Below the pieces are notes generated by a model that was given only the letters and a program-made list of their open reading frames with translations, was not told the origin of the DNA and ran no database searches. Positions 1,798 through 36,287 of a stretch of DNA of 47,594 bases are shown in pieces (position 1 is the first letter of the stretch; each line of letters opens with the position of its first letter). Source of the stretch: Nitrospirales bacterium. GTDB taxonomy: Bacteria > Nitrospirota > Nitrospiria > Nitrospirales > UBA8639. Position numbers and translations under genes: made by a program. The DNA is taken from NCBI GenBank assembly GCA_022824735.1, contig JAJDZI010000002.1, positions 1-47,594 of the forward strand, given 5' to 3'.

Positions 1798-2004
1798 TCA
1801 GATCTTCTTCGCGCTTCCGGCATCTCTTAGAATGCCGTTTGCCGTATGGCGACTCTTGAGATTACGTGGAACCAGCAAAATTTTGCCGTTCCCCAGACGT
1901 TTCCATTTTTCGTGCGAGCCTTTTGCGTTTTTCCAATACGCAAACCCGAGTTTTGAAATTTCTTTCGTGACCGTGTTGTAGAAATCTTCTGCCAAATTAT
2001 ACAA
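1798..2004 (-). CDS. HicA-like mRNA interferase toxin
   Basis: This 68-residue protein has the HicA layout: an N-terminal helix ending ISKLGFAYW, then KNAKGSHEKWKR with the glycine-serine-histidine where HicA toxins keep their catalytic histidine, then a strand LLVPRNLKSRHTANGILRDAG. HicA proteins use a dsRBD-like fold to cleave mRNA. The only usable start is TTG at 2004, overlapping the end of the upstream antitoxin-like gene by eight bases, which suggests translational coupling. HicA usually sits before HicB; here the antitoxin-like gene comes first. Assignment rests on motif and context. Confidence 0.65.
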   Translation of the reverse strand: MYNLAEDFYNTVTKEISKLGFAYWKNAKGSHEKWKRLGNGKILLVPRNLKSRHTANGILRDAGSAKKI

Positions 2005-2248
2005 CCGCCTTTTCTGTCTCCGGACGCTGCCACAGAATAGCCGGGATCAGCTCCTTGAAAGAATGCTCGGCAATCTCAGGGGCAGTCCGATGATTGGCGA
2101 TAATCAATTCAGGCGCTACATCCATCATGATTTCTTCAAATTCATCAAGGTCAGTGGCCTCGATATGCAAACCCTCGATATCGCTTTGAGAATAGAAGAC
2201 CTTTGCTTCAGCATCCCACACCGCTGTCACTCTAAAGGTGCGCTTCAT
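1997..2248 (-). CDS. DUF1902/HicB-like antitoxin candidate
   Basis: The 83 residues begin RTFRVTAVWDAEAKVF and continue SDIEGLHIEATDLDEFEEIM. This is the pattern of DUF1902 proteins, which share the small HicB N-terminal fold of a beta hairpin followed by SDIPGL-type residues and a helix. There is no obvious C-terminal DNA-binding helix-turn-helix or ribbon-helix-helix, unlike longer HicB antitoxins. The gene is directly upstream of and overlaps the HicA-like gene, so it most likely neutralises it. The ATG at 2248 is preceded on the minus strand by AGGGGAGGACAGG, a strong Shine-Dalgarno region. Confidence 0.65.
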   Translation of the reverse strand: MKRTFRVTAVWDAEAKVFYSQSDIEGLHIEATDLDEFEEIMMDVAPELIIANHRTAPEIAEHSFKELIPAILWQRPETEKAVV

Positions 2249-2310
2249 CCTGTCCTCCCCTGCTGTAAGAATTCAGACGAAACCTGCTGCTGCTGTCGGA
2301 GTACGCTACG

Positions 2311-2832
2311 CTAACTTGACCTACCCAACCTTTTCTCAAGATTGATTCTTTCAATCCATCGATGATAAGGTTCCCCACCGATTTTTTCTTCTGCGCTTCT
2401 TGTTACCGCCCGGTGCCTCACTTGCCCAACAAGTTCAATCTGATAAGTATCCGAGTTGTTCCTATAATAATCCGGCTCAACCCACTGTAACGTTTCATTA
2501 ACCCCGTCATTTGTCACCGATAAATTAGTTACTATTCTGGCATATAACCATGCATTTGAACCACTAAGCCTGAGCCCTGCACCGAAGTGAACCGGAAGGC
2601 CATATTGTTGTCGGCGATTTGCGTAATATGCCATATGATAGGCAGATTTTTTCGCCCGCACATCAAGCAGCCACACCACCTCTTTGATGAATTTTTCCGA
2701 ACGATTGCCACTGATAATCGCCATGATACTGCGCCAGTCGTCCGGCCGCGCCCATGGCTCCGTATCCATCCATGTAATCAACCAAGCCTTATTTAAACGA
2801 ACAGCGGGCCTAATATGTGTGGCTCTATGCAT
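2311..2832 (-). CDS. Hypothetical protein
   Basis: This 173-residue protein is rich in aromatic and basic residues (WLITWMDTEPWARPDDW near the N-terminus, YHMAYYANRRQQYGLPVHFGAG around residues 65-87) and has no membrane segment or signal peptide. I do not recognise a family. It lies upstream of the DUF1902/HicA-like pair on the same strand, with a 62-base gap, inside the accessory region. Its long frame, sensible start and phage- or island-type surroundings make it a plausible real gene, but no function can be given. Confidence 0.5.
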   Translation of the reverse strand: MHRATHIRPAVRLNKAWLITWMDTEPWARPDDWRSIMAIISGNRSEKFIKEVVWLLDVRAKKSAYHMAYYANRRQQYGLPVHFGAGLRLSGSNAWLYARIVTNLSVTNDGVNETLQWVEPDYYRNNSDTYQIELVGQVRHRAVTRSAEEKIGGEPYHRWIERINLEKRLGRSS

Positions 2833-2976
2833 ATTTAAACTCCTTTGGTCGTTACTAACACAAGAGGAGCAATCTCTTAATCAGATACCACCATCTTGGA
2901 CCTGCCCCCGGAGTTGGTCCAGCATCTAGGCGATTTTTCTGGCATCTGAAGGGTCCCCAATTTTTAGTCCACGGGA

Positions 2977-3354
2977 TTAGCGATTTTCTGACCGCTGTGT
3001 GTGCCATTGCGCCTTGTACTGCAAGGGCGTGAGGTTCTTGAGAGACCGGTGAGGTCGTCGGACCCGCAATTGCAACCCTTCCAGATCATACAAGCGATAC
3101 ACGCGCTTGTGGTTCACCTGGTGCCCTTCCCGCCTTAACAAGACATGGATCCGTTTGTACCCATAGCGAACGCGGCTCGCAGCCAGGTCGCGAAGACGTT
3201 GCCGTAGTGCCGCTTGGGACGGCCGCCTCGCTTGGTACCGCACGGTCGCCCGGGCTACCCGCACCACCCCACACGCATGCCGTTCGCTGATCCCATACTG
3301 CCCGCAGAGATAGTGCACCACAGCCCGGCGCTCTGGTGCGCTCACCACTTTTTT
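2977..3354 (-). pseudogene. IS3-family OrfB lacking the DDE core
   Basis: After the slippage site the -1 frame reads KKVVSAPERRAVVHYL and continues through the HTH_21-type region (QYGISERHACGVVRVARATV) and YGYKRIHVLLRREGHQVNHK to LQLRVRRP. It then jumps directly to HRSLKNLTPLQYKAQW, which is the extreme C-terminus of IS3 integrases. The roughly 150 residues between, holding the D, D and E of the catalytic triad, are absent while the frame stays open. The join lies at about 3045-3055. The product would be an inactive truncated transposase. Confidence 0.8.
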
Positions 3355-3608
3355 GCTGCAATCTCCTGCAGCATCACCTTGTCCAGGCTGAGTGCCGCCA
3401 CCAGGTTCTTCAGTTTGGTCTTCTCCTCCCGCAATTGCCTGCGTGCCCGCACCTCGGTGGCCTCCAAGCCGCCATCCTGCTTCTTCCAGCGATAGAACGT
3501 CTGCTCCGCAATGCCCAGCTTGCGGGCACTGTCCCCCACTGGCAGTCCCATGTCGTGTTGCTTCACCGCCGCCACAATCTGTTCCACTGAATACCGCGTG
3601 CGTTTCAT
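3342..3608 (-). CDS. IS3-family transposase OrfA
   Basis: This 88-residue protein (from MKRTRYSVEQIVAAVKQH) is a typical IS3 OrfA. It has an N-terminal helix-turn-helix (DSARKLGIAEQTFYRWKKQ) that binds the element ends, then a leucine-zipper-like coiled coil (LREEKTKLKNLVAALSLDKVML). The ATG at 3608 is preceded by GAGGAGGTC, a better start than an upstream in-frame ATG at 3632. The end carries the heptamer A AAA AAG (minus strand of 3348-3354), the usual -1 slippage site for making the OrfAB transposase. OrfA alone normally regulates transposition. With the catalytic core gone it can only act on relatives in trans. Confidence 0.85.
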   Translation of the reverse strand: MKRTRYSVEQIVAAVKQHDMGLPVGDSARKLGIAEQTFYRWKKQDGGLEATEVRARRQLREEKTKLKNLVAALSLDKVMLQEIAAKKW

Positions 3609-3680
3609 CGTCAGACCTCCTCCTCGGATCATAGTCTGCCAGAAATCGCCTCCTTTGTGGCTTAGTTTTTGGGGAGACCG

Positions 3681-3899
3681 TCACTCGTGAGCTTGGCGCG
3701 CGAAGGCCCTCGGCGTCAAATTACCGAGCGCCGAGTGCGGCCGCGCGGTATTATAGTCCTGCCTCCAATGTTCAATCCGGTCTCTGGCGTCGTGCATCGA
3801 TAAGAACCAGGAGGCATTCAAGCACTCGGCCACTTCTCGTGACACGTTCACGTCCGCACACCACGACCGGAAACACGCCCGGGCAATGGCATGGGGCAC
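3681..3899 (-). pseudogene. IS3-family transposase C-terminal fragment (second element)
   Basis: This 72-codon frame ends in ECLNASWFLSMHDARDRIEHW and DYNTARPHSALGNLTPRAFA, the C-terminal signature of IS3-group integrases. The first 25 codons look unrelated or degraded, and the frame is closed upstream by a TAA. It is not part of the neighbouring 2951-3679 element, since that element has its own C-terminal tail. So two IS3 copies are nested or abutting here. Confidence 0.7.
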
Positions 3900-3997
3900 G
3901 CCTTGGATCCCGTTCTCGCGAACCAGTTTACTAAGTGGTTATGATGAAACAGGTTGGGACACCGTGGACTAGGGAAGACTACGTGAGACTGTGTAAA

Positions 3998-4149
3998 TGG
4001 CGGAGAGGGTGGGAATTCGAAGTCGCAGGGCGAGTCCTGCCCCGCTCCCGCTAGGGGGCCACGCCCCCTCGCGCCTCTGCTTTGCTCCGGTCACCCCATG
4101 AAGGGGGCACACCCCCTTCAAAACCCCCTGTTCGAATCCCACCCTCTTC
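3998..4149. repeat. tRNA-Ser 3'-end repeats enclosing three hairpins (att-like)
   Basis: Bases 3998-4021 repeat the 3' end of the tRNA-Ser gene at 4206-4228 in the same orientation: 17 identical bases TGGCGGAGAGGGTGGGA, one extra A, then TTCGAA. An inverted copy (TTCGAATCCCACCCTCT) lies at about 4131-4147, so the two can pair as a long stem. Between them are three perfect short hairpins: GCAGG/CCTGC near 4025-4040, AGGGGG/CCCCCT near 4053-4069, and GAAGGGGG/CCCCCTTC near 4098-4117. Duplicated tRNA 3' ends are the usual mark of tyrosine-recombinase integration. The inverted copy and hairpins are not explained by that. Confidence 0.6.
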
Positions 4150-4205
4150 TCGAGCCTTTGGTTAACATTCTCGCTCCACGCTCAATTTAATCGCTCTTGA
4201 CGTCA

Positions 4206-4295
<90 letters not shown>

Positions 4296-4312
4296 GCACG
4301 ACGAAGGGTGCC

Positions 4313-4341
4313 ATCTTAGCATGGGTTTTACGGACCAACAA
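4313..4341 (-). promoter_or_regulatory. Sigma70-type promoter of tRNA-Ser
   Basis: The minus strand reads TTGTTG, a 17-base spacer, then TAAGAT preceded by TGC (an extended -10). It lies about 18 bases before the 5' end of the mature tRNA. This is a sequence match only. Confidence 0.6.
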
Positions 4342-4378
4342 GAAAACTTCCCTCACCCCGACCCATAAGGCACAATGT

Positions 4379-4417
4379 GTCAACCATGTCCCCGAACACC
4401 CGTTAACCATGTCTCCG
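4379..4417. repeat. Direct-repeat pair, possible IS481-type end remnant
   Basis: Two 16-base copies of GTYAACCATGTCYCCG lie at 4379-4394 and 4402-4417, 23 bases apart. From memory this pattern resembles the terminal region of IS481-like elements. No transposase is present next to it, so if it is an IS end it is a relic. Confidence 0.35.
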
Positions 4418-4472: not shown

Positions 4473-5288
4473 TCAGTGACCAGAGGATTGGCGTCGCTGA
4501 AATAATCGTTGTCGCCGGGAGGAACTGGTCAGCGCCTTATAGAGATGGCCGCGAAAGAGCATCATCAGGACCGCCGAGAGGGGCGTCAGGCACAGCACCA
4601 GGATCATGGCCGTTGAGGAGGACAGTCCGAGAGCCTGGAACCACTGGCTCAACACGGCGAAGGGTAATGCCAGGAGTTGAAAAAAATCCAAGCCGATCAA
4701 CCGGCCGCTCCGGCTCGAAATCGAAAAGAAAAAGGACAACCCGAACGGCGCCAGGATCACGACCAGGGGGAGAAACCATTCAATCCAATTTTCCAGGACG
4801 AATTCGTAACTGTCTTTGAGAATTTCAAGGGAGGCACCGGCACGGCTCTGGTAAATCAATTCGGGAACGGGATTGAGCAAAATAAACAGGAGCAGGAAAA
4901 CGGCTGAAACGATCACCGGCCCATACGGATTGGCTTGCATGCCGAGTTCGAGAATTTGCAGGGGGACCCACACGATAAAGCCGACCGTGATCACGTCCCA
5001 GAAATAGCTGCCGGCCACGTCCCACAGGTCGCTCCACACCATGGGTCGCGCGCCCGTCACGGCCTGTTCGAGTAATCCCAGAAACACTCCGACCACAAAC
5101 GCGTTGGCCACGCCCAGCAACAAGCCGCCCAACATGCCGAGCCCCATGGCCAATCCGGTAGCCGCGTACATGAGCACGGCCAGGATCATGACCGCCGGGA
5201 CGAGCAGCCAGCTTCTGGTCAGCGACCGCCACGTCGCAAAGAGGGCTTGACGATACAGTTGAAGAGTCGCTGGGACGAACTCCGACAT
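4473..5288 (-). CDS. Multi-pass membrane protein, unknown function
   Basis: This 271-residue protein has about six hydrophobic segments: around residues 27-45 (LLVPAVMILAVLMYAATGLA), 50-75, 98-115, 122-142, 170-190, 205-225 and possibly 228-245. It has a basic C-terminal tail ending RRQRLFQRRQSSGH, consistent with a cytoplasmic end. No transporter signature or catalytic motif is visible. It is followed on the other side by tRNA-Ser and preceded, with a gap of about 26 bases, by a small gene on the same strand, so the two may be co-transcribed. I cannot assign a family. Confidence 0.75.
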   Translation of the reverse strand: MSEFVPATLQLYRQALFATWRSLTRSWLLVPAVMILAVLMYAATGLAMGLGMLGGLLLGVANAFVVGVFLGLLEQAVTGARPMVWSDLWDVAGSYFWDVITVGFIVWVPLQILELGMQANPYGPVIVSAVFLLLFILLNPVPELIYQSRAGASLEILKDSYEFVLENWIEWFLPLVVILAPFGLSFFFSISSRSGRLIGLDFFQLLALPFAVLSQWFQALGLSSSTAMILVLCLTPLSAVLMMLFRGHLYKALTSSSRRQRLFQRRQSSGH

Positions 5289-5314
5289 GAGCCGTCGAGT
5301 GAAGTGAAAGCCGA

Positions 5315-5605
5315 TTAGCCTGATGATCCTGGATCAGAGCCTGTCCTCGACATCTGTAATCGGGGATCGGAGACAGGCTTTTGCTTGAGGGTGAGAATCT
5401 CCTGCTGTTGGCGGTCCCGTTCCTGCGCAATCTTCTTCAACCGGCTGGGCCGGTCAAGGGTCCACCACTTGACGCGATCCTTAAACGACACCGCTTTGGG
5501 CGCCACGCTTTTAAGCGGTTCCTCTTGAAAATTGAACCCCTTGTGGGACTCGCGCGTTTGGATGAACTGCTCGTAAATATTCAGGTACAGTTTTTTGAGA
5601 TCCAT
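5315..5605 (-). CDS. Small hypothetical protein
   Basis: The protein has 96 residues from the likely start MDLKKLYLNIYEQFIQ at 5605; a start three codons upstream is also possible. The middle (FKDRVKWWTLDRPSRLKKIAQERDRQQQEILTLKQ) is charged and helical and could form a short coiled coil. There is no signal peptide or membrane segment. The last 20 or so codons are encoded by a fragment of the dispersed repeat found at 22.4 and 42.3 kb, so the true C-terminus may have been altered by insertion. It lies just upstream of the membrane-protein gene on the same strand. Confidence 0.55.
   Translation of the reverse strand: MDLKKLYLNIYEQFIQTRESHKGFNFQEEPLKSVAPKAVSFKDRVKWWTLDRPSRLKKIAQERDRQQQEILTLKQKPVSDPRLQMSRTGSDPGSSG
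5339..5379. repeat. Fragment of the dispersed MITE-like repeat
   Basis: The segment CCTGTCCTCGACATCTGTAA and the following CGGGGATCGGAG match the right end of the repeats at 22367-22542 and 42291-42466 with few differences. Here it is flanked by AGCCTGTC (5339-5346) and GACAGGCT (5372-5379), a perfect 8-base inverted pair. Only the end of the element is present. Confidence 0.55.
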
Positions 5606-5799
5606 CCGGAACACCTTAGCTTACTCCATTGGTTTCTGGCAAGAAGCGGAAGGCTTAGACCCGGCGTTCAGGGCGACAGTACAGGCGTTGACACCTCACG
5701 TACCTGTATGGGTAAATAGCAACAACGGGTACACGTGTGGCCTTTGGGCTTTAGCTGCCCGGTTTCGAGTGCTCACGGGGAAAGAAACGATTCAGAGAC

Positions 5800-5917: not shown

Positions 5918-7243
5918 GTGAAACTGGAAGTCACGGAATTAGGACCGGTTAAGCGCGCGCTTAAAATCGAAGTGCCGGAAGACGCCGTCAACCAGGAATT
6001 CGACCGGGTGTACACCGACCTGAAACGCCAGGCGCGCGTCCCGGGCTTCCGGCCCGGCAAGGCGCCGGTCGCCATGTTGGAAAAACGCTACGCGAAGGCC
6101 GTCGAACAGGACGTCATTCAGCGCCTGGTGCCGATTTACTACCAGAAGGCGATTCAAGAAGCCGGCGTGGCACCCGTGTTGGTTGAAATTTCTCCCATGG
6201 AGCGGATGAAGGCTCACCGAAACACGTCGCTGACTTTTACCGCTACCGTGGAAATCAAGCCTCCGATTGAATTACGCGATTATCGTCCGCCCAACCCCAT
6301 TGCCCTGAAACCCGATTCCCGGACCATTGCCGACGAGGACGTGGATAAAGCCCTGGACCGGTTTCGAGAACAACAGGCCAAGCTCGACGCCGCCCCTGCC
6401 GGCACCCTCCTGGCTGAGGGGCTGTATGCCGTCGTGACGATCGAAGGCGAGGTCGACGGCAAGCCGGTGGAAGGTTCGAAAAAAGAAGGGCACCTCCACA
6501 AGGTGGGGTCTCAGGAGCCCGTGCTGGGTCTCGTCATCGACGACGCGCTGGTGGGAAAACAGGAAGGCGGCCGCGCGGAACTTCAGCAGGAATATGCCGC
6601 CACACATCCGGATGCCCGGCTGGCCGGCAAAGTCGTGACGTTTCATCTCTCCATTCTTGGCGTGAAGCAGAAAATTCTCCCTCCGCTGGATGATGAATTT
6701 GCCAAAGATTGCGGGGAGTATGAGAACCTCGATGCGCTCAAGGACATGATTCGTTCCGAATTGGAGTCGGTCCTCAAACGGGATATCGAAGAAGGCTATA
6801 AGGATCAGATCATGGAACGCCTGTTGGCCATGCATCACTTCGATCTGCCCGAGACCCTGGTCGAACGTGAAATTCGTACGCTGGTTCGACAACGCGTCAT
6901 GGAAGAGCAACGGAAAAAGGGCGGGAAGTTCTCAATGGATGATCAAATCCAAATGGAAGAGCACGCGAAACGCATCCAACAGGAGGTGGCGCCGGGAGCG
7001 CAGAAACGGGTCAAGCTCGCGTTGGTCCTGGAAGCCATTGCGGACAAGGAAGGGATTTCCGTCAGCGAACAGGAGATCGAGCAGGAATTCACCAAGCTTG
7101 CCAAAGGGCTTCAGGTTCCACTGGATGACATCCGCAAGATGGTGGAATCGGGAGGGGACAGTTCGCTTCAGGAGTTCGAGGATCGCATCCGGGCTGAAAA
7201 GGCGCTTCAATTGGTTTATCAATTTGCGGTGATTCAGGGGTAA
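5918..7243 (+). CDS. tig: Trigger factor (ribosome-associated chaperone)
   Basis: This 441-residue chaperone and peptidyl-prolyl isomerase meets nascent chains at the ribosome exit. The N-terminal domain contains the ribosome-binding signature GFRPGKAP (about residues 45-52). An FKBP-like domain follows at about 165-250, then a long helical C-terminal domain typical of the family. I chose GTG at 5918 (VKLEVTELG...) because the longer open frame runs back into the tRNA-Leu gene. No strong Shine-Dalgarno is visible. tig is followed by clpP and clpX on the same strand, the classic order, linking folding at the ribosome to degradation of failures. The length is normal for the family. Confidence 0.95.
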   Translation: MKLEVTELGPVKRALKIEVPEDAVNQEFDRVYTDLKRQARVPGFRPGKAPVAMLEKRYAKAVEQDVIQRLVPIYYQKAIQEAGVAPVLVEISPMERMKAHRNTSLTFTATVEIKPPIELRDYRPPNPIALKPDSRTIADEDVDKALDRFREQQAKLDAAPAGTLLAEGLYAVVTIEGEVDGKPVEGSKKEGHLHKVGSQEPVLGLVIDDALVGKQEGGRAELQQEYAATHPDARLAGKVVTFHLSILGVKQKILPPLDDEFAKDCGEYENLDALKDMIRSELESVLKRDIEEGYKDQIMERLLAMHHFDLPETLVEREIRTLVRQRVMEEQRKKGGKFSMDDQIQMEEHAKRIQQEVAPGAQKRVKLALVLEAIADKEGISVSEQEIEQEFTKLAKGLQVPLDDIRKMVESGGDSSLQEFEDRIRAEKALQLVYQFAVIQG

Positions 7244-7285
7244 GGCGCCCCGCAAACCCGTTTGGCACAGAAAGGGTACAACCGT

Positions 7286-7897
7286 ATGTTAATTCCAATG
7301 GTTATTGAGAGTACGAACCGCGGCGAACGGGCGTACGATATTTACTCCCGCTTGTTGAAGGACCGCATTATCTTCCTCGGCGCGCCTATCGACGACGTGT
7401 TCTCCAACCTCATCATCGCGCAATTGCTGTTCCTGGAAGCCGAAGATCCGGAAAAAGACATCAACCTCTATATTAATTCCCCGGGCGGGAGCGTGACCGC
7501 GGGCCTGGGCATTTACGATACCATGCAATACGTGAAACCGCCGATTACGACCATTTGTCTGGGCCAGGCCGCCAGCATGGGTGCCCTGCTCCTGACGGCG
7601 GGCACCAAAGGCAAACGGTATGCCCTGCCCAACGCCCGGGTGATGATTCACCAACCCATGGGAGGATTTCAGGGACAAGCGACGGAGATCGACATTCACG
7701 CGCGCGAGATCCTGAAAATCCGCGAACGGCTCAACCAGATCATGGCGGAACACACGGGTCAGTCGCTGGACAAAATCAGCCAGGATACCGAGCGGGATTA
7801 TTTCATGTCTGGCACGGAAGCCAAGAATTACGGTCTGATCGATGAAGTCATTGTCAGGGCGTCGGAAAAGGAAACGGCCGGCTCGAACGGCGCCTGA
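7286..7897 (+). CDS. clpP: ATP-dependent Clp protease proteolytic subunit
   Basis: This is a 203-residue serine protease that forms the two-ring barrel used by ClpX. The catalytic triad is Ser97 (GQAASMGA), His122 (MIHQP) and Asp171 (ERDYFMS). NSPGGSV (about 64-70) forms the oxyanion region. ATG at 7286 is preceded by AAAGGG at a good distance; an in-frame TTG at 7262 would add eight residues and is less likely. MLIPMVIE is the usual N-terminus of processed ClpP. The gene is 42 bases after tig and 21 before clpX, so they are probably co-transcribed. Confidence 0.97.
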
Positions 7898-7918
7898 CCG
7901 CTGAACGCCGAGTACCTC

Positions 7919-9178
7919 ATGACCAAACAACTCAAATCGGACGAGAATCTACGGTGTTCGTTCTGTGGAAAAAGCCGCGATCAGGTGCGCAAACTGATTG
8001 CGGGACCCACCGTCTACATCTGCGACGAATGCGTGGGCCTCTGCAACGAAATCATGGCCGAGGAATGGCAAGAGGCCAAAGAAGCCCTTTCCTCCAAGCT
8101 TCGCAAACCCGTCGAGATCAACCGCCACCTGGATCAATATATCATCGACCAGGCCCGCGCCAAAAAGATTCTCTCAGTCGCCGTGCATAACCACTATAAA
8201 CGCATCGCCGCGAATGAAACCGGAGACGTCGAGCTCCAAAAAGGCAACATTCTGATGATTGGGCCGACGGGAACCGGGAAGACGCTATTCGCTCAAACCC
8301 TGGCCGATTACCTGGACGTCCCGTTTACCCTGGCCGATGCCACTACCCTGACTGAAGCGGGGTACGTCGGGGAAGACGTCGAGAACATTATCCTGAAATT
8401 GCTGCAAGCCGCGGATTATGAAGTCGAACGCGCCGAACGCGGCATCATTTATATCGATGAGATCGACAAGATCACGCGGAAGGCCGACAGCCCCTCCATT
8501 ACCCGCGACGTGTCGGGGGAAGGCGTGCAGCAAGCCCTGCTGAAACTCATCGAAGGCACGGTGGCCAACGTGCCGCCGCAAGGCGGCCGGAAACATCCCC
8601 ACCAGGAATTCATCCAGGTGGACACCAAGAATATCCTGGTCATTTGTGGCGGGGCGTTTGTCGGACTTGAACCCATTGTCGAACGACGGTTGAACCGAAA
8701 CCGCATGGGCTTCAAATCGGACCGGTCCGCCTCGCCGCAGGAACGCTCCGCGTCCCTGCTGGCCCACATCCAACCGGAAGACTTACTTCAATACGGATTG
8801 ATCCCCGAATTCATCGGGCGATTGCCGGTGGTGACGACGCTGGAGGAGTTGGATGAACACGCGTTGGTCCGGATTTTAACCGAACCCAGGAACGCCTTAA
8901 CCAAGCAATATCAAAAGCTGTTGTCCTTGGACAACGTGAAACTGAAATTTACGGATGGGGCCCTCCATGCCGTCGCCAGAAAAGCCTATGCGCAAAAAAC
9001 CGGGGCACGGGGACTTCGCGCGATCATGGAAGAGGTCATGCTCGATATTATGTACGAGATTCCCTCGCAAACCGGGGTCAAGGAAGTGGTGATTACCGAG
9101 GACGTGATTCTCAAACAAGATGAACCGTTCAAATTTGTCGAATCGTCACCACGCATGAAACCCGCCGTGGGCTCGTAG
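7919..9178 (+). CDS. clpX: ATP-dependent Clp protease ATP-binding subunit ClpX
   Basis: This is a 419-residue AAA+ unfoldase that recognises tagged substrates and feeds them to ClpP. The N-terminal four-cysteine zinc-binding domain is visible (CSFCGKS...[10 protein letters not shown], about residues 12-42). Walker A is GPTGTGKT (115-122) and Walker B is IIYIDEID. The ClpX pore and sensor regions are present ([19 protein letters not shown] near residue 360). The stop codon at 9176-9178 directly abuts the stop of the convergent topB gene, leaving no room for separate intergenic terminators. Confidence 0.97.
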
Positions 9179-28499: not shown

Positions 28500-29852
28500 C
28501 TAGAAGTTGTACTCCAGGTGGAACTCGTAGAAGCCGTCGCGCCGCCCCACGTATTGAACATCCAATGGGTCGATGCTGAGAATCAGGTTCGCCTCCGCAT
28601 GCAGGGACCATTGGTCGAAGAGCCGCCGGTCGAATTCAAATCCCAGGTTGCGGGTTTCACGGCTGGCGTCCGTTAAAAACGCAGCCGTGATTTCAGTGTT
28701 TTGGACGTCGTTGAATGCCAGGCGCGCGCCAATGAAGAAATCGTTGTCCAGCGTCATGGGCTGGCGCCTGGGGAGCGCTCGCCGGCCCCGCTCATCATAA
28801 TTCCATTCAGCCAGCAGGCCGACGTCGGCCGTTGAATCAAAGACGGAATAGAACGTGTATTCGCCGCCCACCACCGCGGCCACGTATTCCTCTTCTCGAT
28901 ACTGACCAAGAATATCTTCAAATCCGCCTCCCTGAATCAGGGCAGTACGTATCCCTTCTTCCTGACCGAGCGGGTTACGCTCGCCGGACCGATGTATGGC
29001 CTCAAACTTGAGCAGCCAGGAGTCGAGCGTCAGTTGCGCGTCCAGCCCAAACTGGCGAATTTGTGAGTAATACGGAATAAAGACAGACGGGAACGCGCTG
29101 CCGCCACAAGCAGGCGGCGCACACACGAGGGTCGCTTCCCGGCTGGTGCCGTCGAACACGCTCATACCGACGTCCAGGGGTCCGAAGCTGCGACTGTAGC
29201 GGGCTGCGAAATCCGGATGCCATTCCTCAGCCCTGCTCTCATACTCCACCCGCTCGCGGTCCACGAGTCCCGCGAAGCGCAGGCGACCGCCACGCCCCGG
29301 GTAGATACGCGGACGGTGATACGGCAACCCAAAGAATTCCAACACGCCCCAATCGCCGGTCCACGTCAGGTGAACCATGGGTTGCCCCAACTTCACCTCG
29401 CCGTTGGGATGTTCGAGGAAGTCGATCTGATTGATGACGTCAACCAGGTGTTGCGATTCGGCCACGCCCCAGAACACCCGGTCCACGCCCAGCCGCACCT
29501 CCCATTCACCCGCGCCCAACTCGCCGTACAGCAGCGCATACGCTTCCCGCAGATCCCAGTGGGTGCGGACCGAGTCCACGCTGTCGTAGCGAAAGAACGG
29601 CAACAGGGTGAAACTACTCCCTTCGGCCTCTTCAAGGTAGAGTTTGGGCTCCACCACAAAGCCGGTCGTATACGAGCGCTGGCTGGCGTCAATGCCGGTT
29701 TGCGGAAACGCGCGGCCTTCCAGGCTCACGCGGCCGGACAGGTCCCAGGCCGCAAGCTCGAATTCCGCATGGGCTTCGATGGCCACAATAGACGCCGCCA
29801 GCCAGACCGCCGTGAAAGCCAAGGGATAACGAACGGCACGGCGTCGCATCAC
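28500..29852 (-). CDS. Outer-membrane beta-barrel protein
   Basis: This 450-residue protein has a signal peptide (to about residue 30, ...IVAIEAHA). The rest is dominated by alternating hydrophobic strands and aromatic-girdle residues. It ends in FHLEYNF, whose C-terminal phenylalanine is the usual signal for the BAM insertion machinery. A two-cysteine loop (VCAPPACGG) lies near residue 247. It follows a LolA-like gene (four-base overlap) and an RND exporter, so it is probably the outer-membrane partner of that export or lipid-traffic unit. I do not recognise a named porin family. Confidence 0.85.
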   Translation of the reverse strand: MMRRRAVRYPLAFTAVWLAASIVAIEAHAEFELAAWDLSGRVSLEGRAFPQTGIDASQRSYTTGFVVEPKLYLEEAEGSSFTLLPFFRYDSVDSVRTHWDLREAYALLYGELGAGEWEVRLGVDRVFWGVAESQHLVDVINQIDFLEHPNGEVKLGQPMVHLTWTGDWGVLEFFGLPYHRPRIYPGRGGRLRFAGLVDRERVEYESRAEEWHPDFAARYSRSFGPLDVGMSVFDGTSREATLVCAPPACGGSAFPSVFIPYYSQIRQFGLDAQLTLDSWLLKFEAIHRSGERNPLGQEEGIRTALIQGGGFEDILGQYREEEYVAAVVGGEYTFYSVFDSTADVGLLAEWNYDERGRRALPRRQPMTLDNDFFIGARLAFNDVQNTEITAAFLTDASRETRNLGFEFDRRLFDQWSLHAEANLILSIDPLDVQYVGRRDGFYEFHLEYNF

Positions 29853-30670
29853 CGGACTCGTTTCAACCCGGTTTTGCTGAAATCACGGTCCCTGAGTTTG
29901 GTCCGAAACTGATAATCCGCCCAAGTCAACACGGTACTCTTGCCCGTCAGATGATTGACCATGTTCATCTCACCGGCGCGCCAGTACTTGTCCAGGTGTT
30001 GCGTGTAGTTCCCAACGGTGAGCGTCTTCAAGTGCGCGTCCTTGCGGTCGTAGTAGTCCACTTTCCAGATGCGCAGTTCGTCTTTGTCTTGCCAGACCAC
30101 TTGGCGGCTGTAGCCTGAAGCTTTCTTGTCCACCGGGAAGCGTTCACAGACCGTACATGTCAAGTCCCCGCACGGTTCATCCCGCAGGTATCGATAAGTG
30201 AATTTTTCCACCTCCGGAGCACTCAGATCCTCATAGGAGAACTCGCTGCCCATGAAGGAGCCGGAACGGTTCGACGAACTGATCCGCTTGACTCGTTTCA
30301 GCGCCGGGAGATACAGCCATTGGTCGTCCGCTTCATGCTTATGGGCGTGGGTGAGCAGCGCAGTCCCTCGAACGTCGCGCGGCTCGTCGAACACCGTCAG
30401 GCTTTTATTCCCGTCGTCGTCCACCTCCAACACCTTGATACGGAGTTGCCGCCGGCTCTCCTGCCCCTGCTTATTGCGCAGCACCATGGTCTGCTTGGCC
30501 GTGAAATTGCCAAAGCCGTCATCACGCGCCTTGGATTCGGTGGCAATCTTCAACCCGATCTCCTCGGGGGTGGCCGGGTACGCAAATGGGGACATCCATA
30601 ACCAAGACAATACGACCAGGCACGGGGAGAGCAGCAAAACCCGTACGAGATATGCATGGATCGTTCTCAT
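29849..30670 (-). CDS. LolA-like outer-membrane lipoprotein-sorting protein
   Basis: This 273-residue protein has a signal peptide (about residues 1-32, ...SPFAYPA). The mature part is that of the outer-membrane lipoprotein-sorting group found beside RND/MMPL exporters: GNFTAKQTMVLRNKQGQESRR near the start, DDQWLYLPALKRVKRISSSNRSGSFMGSEFSYED in the middle. Such proteins are thought to carry lipid-like cargo across the periplasm in a LolA/VioE-type half-barrel. ATG at 30670 has GGAGGAAATT before it and overlaps the exporter stop by four bases. A much longer upstream frame is a shadow of the exporter. Confidence 0.88.
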   Translation of the reverse strand: MRTIHAYLVRVLLLSPCLVVLSWLWMSPFAYPATPEEIGLKIATESKARDDGFGNFTAKQTMVLRNKQGQESRRQLRIKVLEVDDDGNKSLTVFDEPRDVRGTALLTHAHKHEADDQWLYLPALKRVKRISSSNRSGSFMGSEFSYEDLSAPEVEKFTYRYLRDEPCGDLTCTVCERFPVDKKASGYSRQVVWQDKDELRIWKVDYYDRKDAHLKTLTVGNYTQHLDKYWRAGEMNMVNHLTGKSTVLTWADYQFRTKLRDRDFSKTGLKRVR

Positions 30671-32955
30671 AATTTCCTCCTGTCGATAGCCATCAGCAAA
30701 GGGGGAAGAAGCAGAAAATCGGCGGCGATCGCGAAAACGATCGTGATCGTGACCATCAGACCGAGCGCCCAACTGACCTCGAATCCCGATGCGGAATATA
30801 CCAGGAAGCCCGCTGCCAGGACCACTGTCGTGGTCCATAACGCTTGCCCCACCGTGCGAAACGTGGAGCGCACCGCCTCCGGCGCCAGGAGCCCCTCGCC
30901 GCGGGCCTTCTGATATTTGCTCAGAAAATGCGTGGTGTCGTCCACGATGAGGCCGAACGCGATCGCCGTCATCACGGACCCGGCAAGACCTACTTGGCCG
31001 ACCAGGTAGCCCCACAGGCCGAAACTCATGGCCGCGGGAATAAAATTGGGCACCAGACTGACCAGGCCGAGGCGCAGGCTCTTCAGAAACCAGATCAAAA
31101 TGAGCGAAATGAAGCCCATGGCGACAATCGTGGAGCGCAGCATGCTCTGGATGTTTCGTTGGGACAGGTGAGAAAAGACGATGCTGACGCCCGTGGCCGG
31201 GGTTGCAAGACCGGGCGCATTGGCGCGAAGCCAGGCCAGCCCGCGCTCATCAAGGTCGCGCTGTTGCTGGGCCGACAAGCTGCGCATCACGACGGTCATC
31301 CGCGTGGCGGATTTGGCAACGTCGAGACGGTCGTTGAGGTCCCTGCCGAACGGCAGCGAAAACTCGTACAGCAACAGGTATTGCGCGGCCAGTTCCGGAT
31401 CGGCAGGCAACCGATAGAAGGCCGGATCATCGCCGTGCATGTTTTTGTTGAGACGTTTCATGACGTCCGGGAAGGCCTGGACGTGAGTCACTTCGGGCTG
31501 TCCCCGGAACCATTCGGCAAAGGCATCGACCGTGCGCAGGTAGCCGGGATCCGTGACGCCGCCTTCACGCCCCGCGTTCAGCGAGTACTCCAAGGATTCC
31601 ATGCCGGTCAGGTTTTCGATCACGAAGTCCGTATCACGCCTGAACGCGTAACGGTCATCGAAATACTCCGTCCAGTTGTCGGTCAACTCAATGCGTAAAA
31701 TGCCCATGACCAGAACAACGGTCGACAGGGTGACGAACCAGAGCAGGAAAGTGCGTCGCGCAATGACGAAGGCGGCGAAGTGATCGAAGAAGCCCGGCCG
31801 GTCGGCATGAGCGCGAGGTGCCCGCAACGGCAGGACAGACAGGAGTGCCGGAAGGAGCGTCATGGAGTAGACCAAGGCGCACGTCACCCCAAACGCCACG
31901 AGATTACCCAGAACGTGAAAAGGCGGCGAATCCGAAGCATTCAAGCTGAGGAACGCGATTGCGGTCGTGATCGAGGTGAGGAAGACCGGCCAGGTATTGC
32001 TGCGTAGCGATTCCGTAATCGCCTCATTCCTGCCCAGGCCACGGCTCACACCCGCCAGGGCGGTCGTGACAATGTGGATGGAATCCGCAACGGCGACCGT
32101 CATGACGATGATCGGAACGCCGGCATTGACGGGGCTGAATATCGTACCGATCCAACCGGCGAATCCCACGGTCGTGTTGATCGTAAACATGAGCGTGACA
32201 ACGACGGCCAGGGTGGCGAACACGGAGCGCAGAAGAACGGCGGTCATGACCACGATGAGCAGGAACACGATCGGCGAGAGGTTCTCCATATCGTCCTTCG
32301 TCGCGTCGGCAAAGGCGCGGTTGATGACGACGTCACCGGTCAGGTAATAGGCGATATCCGGATGGCTTGCGCGGGCTTGATCCAAGAGGGTGTTGAGATA
32401 ATCGGTGAGTTCGACCACCGCGGGGTCAGGATTTTCCGGAAGGACGAAATTGATGGCCATCCCGGCCACTCGCCCGTCACGAGAGACCAGCCGTCCGGCA
32501 ATGTCGATGGCGTTGAGCGCAATCTTCTCGATTCGCGCCAAATCGGTATCGCTCAGCGACTGCGCGTCATCCACGAGCGGGGCGACAACCAGTTCGTCGC
32601 CGAACGCCTCACTGTGGGAATAATTGGTCAGGGAATCGACCCGGTTGGAATACGGTGTGTGCCAGGCGGCATCGGTCAGTTCCTCGATGGCACCGAGTGT
32701 CTCCCGGGTGAACGCCAACCCCTCGCGCGGCGCCACGGCGATCAACGCGGTATGGGATACGGAATAGGTATCCTCCAGGGCCTCCAACGCGGCGAGTTGC
32801 GGATCATCTTCGCTGAACAGACTACGGTAATCGTTCGTGACGCCGATGAAGCGGGCACCCGCCGTCATGACCAGCATGGCCAGTGTCGCGAAGACCACGA
32901 CCGGCCACCGGCGGCGCAGGATAACGGCGATGTATCGGTCCAGAAGCGTCATCAA
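30667..32955 (-). CDS. RND/MMPL-family exporter
   Basis: This 762-residue inner-membrane protein has two halves of six helices. Helix 1 is near residues 17-35. Each half has a large periplasmic loop, and the membrane-embedded charged region appears as MTVAVADSIHIVTTALAG in the first half and AIAFGLIVDDTTHFLSKY in the second, the usual proton-relay site. Proteins of this group export lipids, hopanoids or hydrophobic small molecules. It lies between an MpaB-like oxygenase gene (74-base gap) and the LolA-like gene. The four probably form one transcript. Cargo is unknown. Confidence 0.92.
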   Translation of the reverse strand: MMTLLDRYIAVILRRRWPVVVFATLAMLVMTAGARFIGVTNDYRSLFSEDDPQLAALEALEDTYSVSHTALIAVAPREGLAFTRETLGAIEELTDAAWHTPYSNRVDSLTNYSHSEAFGDELVVAPLVDDAQSLSDTDLARIEKIALNAIDIAGRLVSRDGRVAGMAINFVLPENPDPAVVELTDYLNTLLDQARASHPDIAYYLTGDVVINRAFADATKDDMENLSPIVFLLIVVMTAVLLRSVFATLAVVVTLMFTINTTVGFAGWIGTIFSPVNAGVPIIVMTVAVADSIHIVTTALAGVSRGLGRNEAITESLRSNTWPVFLTSITTAIAFLSLNASDSPPFHVLGNLVAFGVTCALVYSMTLLPALLSVLPLRAPRAHADRPGFFDHFAAFVIARRTFLLWFVTLSTVVLVMGILRIELTDNWTEYFDDRYAFRRDTDFVIENLTGMESLEYSLNAGREGGVTDPGYLRTVDAFAEWFRGQPEVTHVQAFPDVMKRLNKNMHGDDPAFYRLPADPELAAQYLLLYEFSLPFGRDLNDRLDVAKSATRMTVVMRSLSAQQQRDLDERGLAWLRANAPGLATPATGVSIVFSHLSQRNIQSMLRSTIVAMGFISLILIWFLKSLRLGLVSLVPNFIPAAMSFGLWGYLVGQVGLAGSVMTAIAFGLIVDDTTHFLSKYQKARGEGLLAPEAVRSTFRTVGQALWTTTVVLAAGFLVYSASGFEVSWALGLMVTITIVFAIAADFLLLPPLLMAIDRRKL

Positions 32956-33029: not shown

Positions 33030-34205
33030 TTACCAGGGGCTCGATTTTGAGTGAGAGACGTGGTCGGGCATCTTGTAACTCACTCCCCCTTCGTCATACA
33101 CCGATATTTGGAGCATTTGAGAAAAATTATCTGATCTGATTCCGCCTTTCTTGAGCCATCGTTTGAAGAATCGTTGTACGCGTTGTTTGTTCCGGAACAG
33201 AAACAGCGTGCCGATGTTCCAGCCTTTTGGATACTGGAATTGATCGGCGAGCGTGTTCCCAAGGAGTGCGCGTGAAAGACTGTAGGCCAACGTGATCACT
33301 TTTTTCTGTTCAACCGAGTCCGTGATGCCCGCGACGACCGGAATGGACCGGATCAAGGCATTTGCCATGGTGACGGAATCGGCATCCGGCGGCGGCTCGC
33401 ACATATACCCGATCCTGTATACGGTATCCGCTTCTTCGGCGTTTGTATAGAGGATGGTTTCAGGGATCCCCATGAGATAGCCGGTGTAGCGCCACACGGC
33501 CAGCACGCTTTCTTTTTCTTCATCGCTGAAATGCGCGCCCACCAACGCCGAATAAGTCAACAGGCGCTTGGAAAAGACGGAGATGGCAAAACCCAAGTGC
33601 GCCGCGCTCAGCGGCGTGCCCCACACGTCATGCTTCCAAGCGTCGGATTTCGCCAACAGGTTCCTGATGCGAGCATGAACGAAGCGCACGCGCGTGGAGA
33701 GCTTCCACCCGTCGCCATCTCGTCGCAACCCACCGGGGTAAAAGATTTCCATCAGTTGGCGGTTATTCTGTTTGAGGCGTCTGTCGGTCGATGCGACTCG
33801 TTTGGTCGTATTGAAAGACTTGGCGATCAGCGTCGAGAAGCCTTCCACCAGCACCCCCGTCACGAAGGCGACGAGCATGAGTTGGACGTTTTCATTGAAG
33901 ACCAGAATGCCCGGACGAAACGCCTGGTAGTCCAACCAGGGAGGTTCTTCAAAATGGTCGAAGAAATCGCGCAGGGCCTGCGGTGCGCTACGGAGAACGT
34001 CAACCTGCCGCTCTACTCCCGCCTCAATGAACCGGTGCAGGGCGGCAGGCGCCAACCCGGAGACCTCCTCCAACACCGAATCGAGCACAGGGTCGCCTAT
34101 GGTGGTATGCCGAATATAGTTGTCGGCCGCTGCTTCATCAAAGAGACGGGCCTTCGCATAACCGTCGGCATAGGCCGATGGAGCGGGGAGACATGTTTTA
34201 TTCAT
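33030..34205 (-). CDS. MpaB/latex-clearing-protein-type oxygenase (DUF2236-like)
   Basis: This 391-residue protein matches the ER-bound-oxygenase MpaB / rubber oxygenase family, b-type haem enzymes that oxidatively cleave isoprenoid or other unsaturated chains. Family-like regions are LVEGFSTLIAKSFNTTKRV (about residues 118-136), TRVRFVHARIRNLL with the conserved histidine near residue 178, a likely haem ligand, and YSALVGAHFSDEEKE. No twin-arginine signal is obvious; the N-terminus MNKTCLPAPSAYADGYAK is short. Its ATG at 34205 has no strong Shine-Dalgarno. A separate promoter lies at 34290-34318. Placement before an exporter suggests that its product or substrate is transported. Confidence 0.85.
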   Translation of the reverse strand: MNKTCLPAPSAYADGYAKARLFDEAAADNYIRHTTIGDPVLDSVLEEVSGLAPAALHRFIEAGVERQVDVLRSAPQALRDFFDHFEEPPWLDYQAFRPGILVFNENVQLMLVAFVTGVLVEGFSTLIAKSFNTTKRVASTDRRLKQNNRQLMEIFYPGGLRRDGDGWKLSTRVRFVHARIRNLLAKSDAWKHDVWGTPLSAAHLGFAISVFSKRLLTYSALVGAHFSDEEKESVLAVWRYTGYLMGIPETILYTNAEEADTVYRIGYMCEPPPDADSVTMANALIRSIPVVAGITDSVEQKKVITLAYSLSRALLGNTLADQFQYPKGWNIGTLFLFRNKQRVQRFFKRWLKKGGIRSDNFSQMLQISVYDEGGVSYKMPDHVSHSKSSPW

Positions 34206-34289
34206 GTTTCTGTTTCAAGCAAGCCTGTTTTGAAAAAACTGCACAGCCGGGAACAAGAACTCGGGTAGAGACTCTGATCATAGCTGAGG

Positions 34290-34318
34290 AATATAATGGA
34301 AATGGCGGATGAAGACAA
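34290..34318 (-). promoter_or_regulatory. Sigma70-type promoter ahead of the MpaB-like gene
   Basis: The minus strand reads TTGTCT, a 17-base spacer, then TATATT. Transcription would start near 34283, giving a leader of about 78 bases. The match is good (TATATT is five of six) but it has not been tested. Confidence 0.55.
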
Positions 34319-34393
34319 TAACCGGACAGCAGGACCTCAGAAACGGACGGTTTTCACCGGCAGGGGCCTCACGTCATGAGGGGATAAACAAAC

Positions 34394-34546
34394 TTAGTGT
34401 TGCGGTAAAATCGTGCCGTCCGGCGCGTAGTAAGGCGACACATTCGGACCCGTGCCCCCGGCGATTTTTTCCAAATCATCCAGATCCAAGGGCTCGGACT
34501 CCACGTCTTTCTCGGACCCTACCCCCTTATTGATTTTTTCATCCAC
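34394..34546 (-). CDS. Small peptide with double-glycine-leader-like motif
   Basis: This 50-codon frame has a GTG start at 34546 and TAA at 34394-34396. The first part is acidic and helix-prone (VDEKINKGVGSEKDVESEP). Residues 20-31 read LDLDDLEKIAGG, the pattern of double-glycine leaders of bacteriocins and other ribosomally made peptides, in which hydrophobic residues are spaced before GG. The remaining 19 residues, TGPNVSPYYAPDGTILPQH, would be the core. No ATG, GTG or TTG lies further upstream in the open frame, which begins after a TAA. A consensus-like promoter is 75 bases upstream. No C39 peptidase, cyclase or dehydratase gene is adjacent. The oxygenase and RND exporter genes follow on the same strand. 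It could instead be a chance frame, but composition and promoter argue against it. Confidence 0.6.
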   Translation of the reverse strand: MDEKINKGVGSEKDVESEPLDLDDLEKIAGGTGPNVSPYYAPDGTILPQH

Positions 34547-34620
34547 GGAGGGCTCTTCTATCCTACCGGCTACCCGGAGGTAATTGAAATTTTACGCGCA
34601 TTTTTAATCCCACAAATTGC

Positions 34621-34649
34621 ATTGTTCCTAATTGGCAGAGAATTGTCAA
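34621..34649 (-). promoter_or_regulatory. Sigma70-type promoter of the small peptide gene
   Basis: The minus strand reads a perfect TTGACA (34644-34649), a 17-base spacer, then AACAAT (34621-34626). It lies after the stop of the antiporter gene and points at the 50-codon frame; the leader would be about 67 bases. The surrounding sequence is distinctly AT-rich. Confidence 0.65.
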
Positions 34650-34664
34650 CTATTTCTTAACCAA

Positions 34665-36287
34665 TCAATATTCGCCGGTGGCGTCCCGGGTGATGAGCTC
34701 CAGGATCTGCCGGCTGGTCACCACGCCCAGAAACTTCCGGGACTCCCGGTCCCGGACCGGTATCACCGTCAGCGAGTGTTCGATCATGTGCTGGAGCGCA
34801 TCTTCCACCAACTCTCCGGGCCAAGTCTCCAAGGCCCTGGGACGCGCAAGTTTGCGCAACGGCGTGTGGGACCATGCCTCCTTGGGGAGGTATCGCAGCA
34901 TGCTCAACGAGACAATCCCGGAAAGCTCGCCATGATCCACCACGGCATAGTCCTGCTGATGGGGGACGATCCACTGATCGGCAAAAATCCGCACCGAGAT
35001 CGACGGGTCGGGATAGGTGCGGGTCCGGTCGAGGATGTCCCCAACCGTGATGTCGTCCAGCATAAAGCGCGCCAGCGACGGTGGGAGTGATTCAGGTAGC
35101 GTGTCCCCTTCAGACGGCTTGACCCGGTTGACAACGGCGCGGATGGCGAGCGGCGTGAGCAGGATGTAGGCGAGCATGATGAGCACGAGCAATGAAAAGA
35201 CGTCGTGCCCGATCATGCCAATATCGAGAAGCACCAGCAGGAGGGCCATTTCCGCAACGCCTTTGGCCATCAGCCCGGTGGCCAGGACAAAAGGCACGTC
35301 CAGACGGGCCACGACGGCGGCGATGAACGCGGCGGAGAATTTTCCAGCCAGGGGAATGAGCACCAACGCCACAATGGTCCACACCGGCAACTCGGTGAAG
35401 GCCAGGCTGAGATGCAATCCGGCCGAGGCAAAAAAGAGGGGCACGAACAGCCCTTCGGCGGTGCTTCTCATGCCGGGAACGATGTCCCGGCGTACGTGAT
35501 ACGGAAGTTTCGACAGGGCAGCCCCGAACAGGAGCGCTCCCAGGGAGCCGTGGAGCCCCATATGCTCGGCACCGACAACCGTCAGAAACAACCCCCCCAA
35601 AATCAATCCGAAGGAAAGTTGCGGCACGTGCAGGAAGCGCTTCAGCAGAACGATCAGGGGCGGAAGCACCCGGCTGGCCAATACCCAGGTCGCCACCGTA
35701 AAGACGGCAATCTTGACCGGCAGGATAAGCACGCTTTCCCATCCCAAGTGGTTGACGTGTTCGCTGATGGTGAACCCCACCAGCAACAGGGTCAGCAATT
35801 CGGCGATAAGCGCGGTGGTAAATATCTGGATCCCGATGGGTTCCTTGAGACGGCCTTCGTCGACCAGGACTTTCGCGACCACGCCCAGACTGGTTAAAGA
35901 CAGGACCCCGGCAAGGGCCAGCGAACCGGTAAACGTGAGGCCCAGTCCGAAGTCGTAGATCACATCGGAGGTGACGAACAGGGCAATGACCAAGGACAGG
36001 AGGACCGAGATGATCGAGGCAACAAAAAACCGTCCGTGGACGGCGGCCATGAAGCCGGAAATATCGAGTTCGTCCAGGCCGATGAGGAAGAAGAAGAGGA
36101 AGATGCCGATGGACAACAGGATCTGCATTTCACTGGCGGGCTCGACGATTCCGGCAATCGGTCCCAGCAGGATTCCCGTAGCCGTGTAGGCCACAATGGA
36201 GTTCAGCCGAAAATGCCGGAGAAGGCCTTCGGCCAGTTTGGCGACAACAATAACCAAACCGATGGACAACAGGGCTTTTTCAAGCAT
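34665..36287 (-). CDS. CPA2-family cation:proton antiporter with CBS domains
   Basis: This 540-residue protein. Residues 1-390 form about 12 membrane helices of the Na+/H+ exchanger (Kef-type) fold, with LFFFLIGLDELDISGFM and SLTSLGVVAKVLVDEGRL. Residues about 415-535 contain a tandem CBS pair (MLDDITVGDILDRTR..., LVEDALQHMIEHSLTVIPVRDRES...VVTSRQILELIT), which usually binds adenine nucleotides and gates transport. There is no TrkA-N domain, unlike the second CPA2 gene at 38634. It is divergent from leuC. The transported ion (K+ or Na+) cannot be told. Confidence 0.88.
   Translation of the reverse strand: MLEKALLSIGLVIVVAKLAEGLLRHFRLNSIVAYTATGILLGPIAGIVEPASEMQILLSIGIFLFFFLIGLDELDISGFMAAVHGRFFVASIISVLLSLVIALFVTSDVIYDFGLGLTFTGSLALAGVLSLTSLGVVAKVLVDEGRLKEPIGIQIFTTALIAELLTLLLVGFTISEHVNHLGWESVLILPVKIAVFTVATWVLASRVLPPLIVLLKRFLHVPQLSFGLILGGLFLTVVGAEHMGLHGSLGALLFGAALSKLPYHVRRDIVPGMRSTAEGLFVPLFFASAGLHLSLAFTELPVWTIVALVLIPLAGKFSAAFIAAVVARLDVPFVLATGLMAKGVAEMALLLVLLDIGMIGHDVFSLLVLIMLAYILLTPLAIRAVVNRVKPSEGDTLPESLPPSLARFMLDDITVGDILDRTRTYPDPSISVRIFADQWIVPHQQDYAVVDHGELSGIVSLSMLRYLPKEAWSHTPLRKLARPRALETWPGELVEDALQHMIEHSLTVIPVRDRESRKFLGVVTSRQILELITRDATGEY

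Follow-up and report, generated by a model that had tools for sequence, protein, structure and literature searches.

A conserved double-glycine-leader peptide gene in a Nitrospirales genus, with a probable NHLP-type C39 exporter encoded in trans

The window analysed here, a stretch of 47,594 nucleotides with a G+C content of 57.6%, is contig C63 of a Nitrospirales genome of 2.3 Mb in 151 contigs (G000). We infer that this genome belongs to Candidatus Nitrosymbion, a Nitrospirales genus that is mostly sponge-associated (PMC11812461). The bacteria of this group are nitrite oxidizers. The searches covered 14 genomes of the genus and, more widely, the phylum (396 genomes). Between an antiporter gene and an operon headed by an oxygenase gene lies a 50-codon frame (Table 1), whose translation reads VDEKINKGVGSEKDVESEPLDLDDLEKIAGG followed by TGPNVSPYYAPDGTILPQH and the stop, the predicted cut lying between the two. 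Its start codon is supported by the relatives: eight genomes have ATG at this position, and G004 has GTG, as G000 does. No clear ribosome-binding site was found at the gene and no terminator was recognized by consensus 3' of it. Rfam returned no RNA element for positions 34150-34750, and neither Pfam nor NCBIfam gave a match to the peptide.

Table 1. Features of the peptide locus in the window, and genes of the ~370-residue family at other loci (L handles, with coordinates within each locus).
Feature	Coordinates	Strand	Basis
Conserved promoter block, -35 TTGACA (34649-34644), -10 AACAAT (34626-34621)	34604..34663	-	Alignment of relatives and motif scan
Double-glycine-leader peptide gene of 50 codons, from GTG to TAA	34394..34546	-	Translation; ten orthologs
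Acidic 31-residue leader ending L(-12)DLDD L(-7) EK I(-4) A G G	34454..34546	-	Motif compared with PMC6363468
Predicted released 19-residue peptide TGPNVSPYYAPDGTILPQH	34397..34453	-	Relatives keep [Y/H]-A-[P/A]-D-G
Upstream neighbour, CPA2-type cation:proton antiporter with CBS domain	34665..36287	-	Pfam PF00999, PF00571
Downstream neighbour, mpaB/Lcp-type oxygenase (PF09995, DUF2236); maturation role putative	33030..34205	-	Pfam
MMPL (RND-type) transporter, downstream operon; role in peptide export putative	30667..32955	-	Pfam, NCBIfam
LolA_like/DUF1329 protein and DUF1302-like (weak match) probable outer-membrane protein, last operon genes	28500..30634	-	Pfam
~370-residue family	L097:3312-4415; L098:724-1851, 3211-4353; L099:685-1908, 3259-4401		
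~370-residue family	L100:1121-2248, 4591-5733; L103:2406-3473; L105:15796-16923; L122:4189-5259		

The gene appears to have its own promoter, as the earlier note had proposed. The element TTGACA-N17-AACAAT at 34649-34621 is the sole match to TTGACA-N15..19-WANAAT on both strands of the window, and it belongs to a block of 60 bases that is kept in all ten peptide-bearing genomes (TTGACA at -35 in nine and TTGGCA in one; AAYAAT in all ten).

Orthologs of the peptide were found in 10 of the 14 genomes of the genus, the window genome included, with E values down to 1e-25 in the others. Inside the coding frame every gap has a length divisible by three, whereas other indels occur in the flanks. The pN/pS ratio is 0.51 when pooled, and four independent pairs give 0.62 (Fisher p 0.04), which points to purifying selection that is only moderate. 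The gene is single-copy and its synteny is fixed: wherever the contigs permit the check, it lies between the CPA2-CBS antiporter and the oxygenase-MMPL-LolA_like-DUF1302 operon, and the antiporter adjoins it wherever both are on one contig. The GTG-started frame with an acidic N-terminus described in the earlier note, which had pointed to loss of the frame in relatives as decisive, is intact in ten genomes; comparison of their sequences confirms it as a real, conserved gene. A chance frame in intergenic sequence deserves hardly any credence. Such a frame could well be short, lack a clear ribosome-binding site and show a pN/pS that is only moderate, but ten intact orthologs with E values this low, indels that stay in frame and a conserved promoter led to its rejection.

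Beyond the genus, no relatives were detected at E <= 0.001 among the 396 genomes of the phylum, nor were any found on viral contigs; a separate weak order-level match was recorded in G196 (E 7.5e-4). Within the genus, G013 lacks both the peptide and the antiporter, and the contig that carries its oxygenase ends just upstream of that gene, where the peptide would be expected, so that the absence is not firm. A pattern scan of G000 for other copies of the leader, which misses leaders without I, V or M at position -4, returned besides this peptide only NHLP genes and apparently unrelated matches.

The end of the leader, LDLDDLEKIAGG, fits the recognition motif of C39 peptidases, with L-12, an acidic residue at -8, L-7, I-4, G-2 and G-1. 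The C39 protease LahT150 was solved with a bound leader, whose residues -4, -7 and -12 lie in a hydrophobic groove, and it accepts both Nif11 and NHLP leaders (PMC6363468). L-12, I-4 and G-1 are present in all ten orthologs, L or M at -7 and G-2 in nine, and the acidic residue at -8 in eight. The full double-glycine arrangement (hydrophobic residues at -12/-7/-4, acidic -8, GG/GA/GS) is thus found in G000 and most orthologs, the deviants being G011 (K at -7), G006 (AG, and K at -8) and G005 (V at -8). The predicted released peptide is 16-20 residues long across the genomes. Its [Y/H]A[P/A]DG is kept and its ILP mostly kept, the Tyr being replaced by His in G007.

A C39 exporter is encoded elsewhere in every peptide-bearing genome. 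PF03412 is present in 10/10, and all ten have genes for a HlyD protein, a C39-ABC protein and a second ABC protein at one site near the nth and NAD(P) transhydrogenase (pnt) genes; the C39 peptidase-transporter expected for the double-glycine class therefore occurs in the same genome in all ten, in trans. The C39-ABC protein of G001 scores above the TIGR03796 cut-off and the adjoining homologs of TIGR03797 and TIGR03794 both score below theirs, so that an export system of the kind that accompanies NHLP/Nif11 precursors is at hand. G000 has one exporter copy on C69, near the nth and transhydrogenase genes, and two more on C36 and C149. The G000 C39 domain has LahT150 as its best match (6MPZ, E 4e-39) and retains the catalytic Cys, His and Asp. 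The four genomes lacking the peptide also lack this exporter: G002 and G008 have no PF03412, G010 has a short PF03412 only, and G013 has a different exporter that adjoins its own NHLP gene. In a leuC tree, from which G013 is absent, the ten peptide-bearing genomes form one clade, and the co-occurrence of peptide and exporter therefore counts for about one evolutionary event. A scan of the exporter loci for a promoter block of the peptide type, as a sign of co-regulation, found none.

The exporter adjoins NHLP precursors in G001, G004, G011 and G012. These precursors end in LEEEQLEAIAAG, with RCCC behind the bond predicted to be cut, and their motif, E-E-E-Q-L-E-A-I-A-A-G or a close variant, is almost that of the window leader; its AG ending is the same as in the G006 peptide. 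In G003 and G005 no precursor was found beside the sole C39 exporter. In G006, the altered motif goes together with an apparently frameshifted C39-ABC gene, and the oxygenase next to the peptide has been lost, which would fit a system in decay; an assembly error is possible. The near-identity of the motif to that of NHLP precursors within the genus, together with the exact C39 spacing in most orthologs, argues against a small intracellular or regulatory protein in which the Gly-Gly is a coincidence. Such a protein would fit the very acidic leader, the moderate conservation, the lack of an adjacent exporter gene and the motif defects of G011 and G006, but we regard it as improbable.

The favoured reading, to which we give a probability of roughly 0.74, is that the gene encodes the precursor of a short secreted peptide, processed and exported in trans by an NHLP-type C39 exporter. 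The C39 domain of the NHLP-type peptidase/ABC exporter, whose genes lie at another locus (in G000 presumably one of the three copies), would recognize the acidic leader by its L-12, acidic -8, L-7 and I-4. This exporter would cut after Gly-Gly and, helped by its ABC and HlyD partners, release the 19-residue tail to the outside. Against it count the leader without an NHLP or Nif11 domain, the imperfect motif in G011, G006 and G005, and the moderate selection. The double-glycine precursor put forward in the earlier note is well supported by the conserved recognition positions and the matching exporter, and the main weakness seen there, that no peptidase lies adjacent, is removed by the NHLP-type C39 exporter at another locus in all ten genomes.

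The earlier note had further suggested that the downstream oxygenase and exporter act on the peptide, which is not established. Taken fully, the adjacent mpaB/Lcp-type oxygenase would modify the tail, perhaps once the conserved Tyr had been prenylated in trans, and the MMPL operon would assist export, which would make the peptide a RiPP precursor. We consider this unlikely, if somewhat less so than an intracellular protein. Throughout the genus, peptide, oxygenase and MMPL operon adjoin one another. In G001, G011 and G012, the NHLP/exporter cluster also contains paralogs of the oxygenase (39% identity in G001) and of the MMPL transporter (43%), next to a family for which an ABBA-prenyltransferase fold is predicted. 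Moreover, an NHLP-directed enzyme can act on truncated leaders with LX4L only (PMC10858898), a motif present here at -12/-7. Yet the peptide is intact in G009, where most of the oxygenase and MMPL genes is deleted (oxygenase residue 40 is fused to MMPL residue 366) and no other oxygenase homolog was found at E <= 1e-10, and its frame is kept in G006, where only the last ~60 residues of the oxygenase remain. The His that stands for Tyr in G007 also speaks against such a precursor, as does the lack of YcaO, LanM or radical SAM enzymes adjoining the peptide. The operon appears to be decaying in some genomes (L030 in G006, L032 in G009, L028 in G004). G004 was dropped as an instance of a broken operon, since its exporter genes are broken too and its breaks may be assembly errors; reliance is placed on G009 and G006. 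Because the evidence on the neighbouring operon runs both ways, the peptide is not called a RiPP.

Several further genes were observed at the NHLP loci of the genus. A ~370-residue family flanks the oxygenase paralog and other NHLP genes at NHLP/exporter loci; it has no Pfam match and, in the members scanned, no convincing NCBIfam match. At the exporter locus L098, an mpaB/Lcp-type oxygenase gene (1912-3138) lies between two genes of this family and an MMPL paralog (6380-8725) adjoins an NHLP gene, and likewise at L099 and L100. A YcaO cyclodehydratase gene (L105:17782-19899) lies near the NHLP/exporter locus of G007, and frames clustering with it are found at the edges of L099 and L100. Two related proteins of 39% identity are encoded near NHLP loci (L173:3341-4282, on C80 of G000, and L103:1419-2402), the latter with a sub-threshold match to the squalene-hopene cyclase C-terminal model. 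The NHLP precursors of G000 (L173:5189-5446, L096:9412-9741 and L097:2507-2773) carry the tails GGCWSYG, AVPTGDW and LPWCSSGGCW past the GG.

A sequence-profile search of the PDB with the ~370-residue family found nothing. Its AlphaFold model (mean pLDDT 84) consists of repeated helix-strand units, and the PDB matches of the model at E <= 0.001 are ABBA-type aromatic prenyltransferases (best E 3e-6, TM ~0.5), suggesting that the NHLP peptides may be prenylated by this family. MpaB cleaves a farnesyl chain. One could imagine, as a long shot, that the symbionts make prenylated and oxidatively trimmed double-glycine peptides, namely the NHLPs with their C-terminal Trp/Tyr/Cys tails and perhaps the Tyr-bearing window peptide, by ABBA-fold prenylation, mpaB/Lcp-type cleavage of the isoprenoid, and MMPL and C39 export. 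Peptide prenyltransferases of NHLP or Nif11 clusters are already known, PalQ, which has another fold (PMC10853753), and MppC (PMC12715784), to which NHLPs prenylated by an ABBA enzyme would add a new variant.

As to the role of the peptide, our guess, a weak one, is an intra-species signal or a surface or biofilm peptide like the EbfG proteins, and not a bacteriocin, since the gene occurs in a single copy, the tail is conserved and no immunity candidate is adjacent. On the peptide strand between antiporter and oxygenase, no candidate immunity gene of at least 45 residues was found, and in this respect the interval does not resemble a bacteriocin locus. Symbionts of this group are reportedly inherited vertically in sponges, and to our knowledge peptide communication in them is unstudied. 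The gene adds a genus-specific candidate secreted peptide to these sponge symbionts, with a 19-residue tail short enough for direct synthesis and testing. Since precursor and exporter can lie apart, searches restricted to the neighbourhood of the exporter miss such genes.

In our view the peptide represents a new family among the short double-glycine-leader peptides, themselves a known kind. With the NHLP and Nif11 precursors (TIGR03793, TIGR03798; Haft et al. 2010, PMC2887384) it shares the acidic leader ending L(-12)...L(-7)..I/V(-4)xGG, the presence of a TIGR03794/03796/03797-type exporter in the genomes, and precursors that may lie far from the machinery. Membership by domain was rejected, the peptide having no NCBIfam match to either model, and TIGR03798 found no match in G000. 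The 31-residue leader lacks the NHLP/Nif11 domain, the tail is Cys-free and conserved instead of hypervariable, and a modification enzyme is only a candidate. Class II microcins and bacteriocins and ComC-type GG-leader signals share its length, its leader layout and, as predicted here, C39 processing, and one ortholog has a sub-threshold match over the leader to the cerein 7B family model (E 0.0024); unlike them, the window peptide lacks an immunity candidate or exporter next to it and matches no Pfam or NCBIfam model. EbfG1-4 of Synechococcus elongatus, with PteB, are likewise small double-glycine proteins served by a C39 peptidase-transporter, which helps their secretion, and they act in biofilm formation rather than killing (PMC4997328). 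Their precursors are of 9-10 kDa, with mature forms of 6-7 kDa, and their four genes lie together, whereas here a single precursor of 50 residues would be served by an exporter encoded elsewhere, with a biofilm role suggested by analogy.
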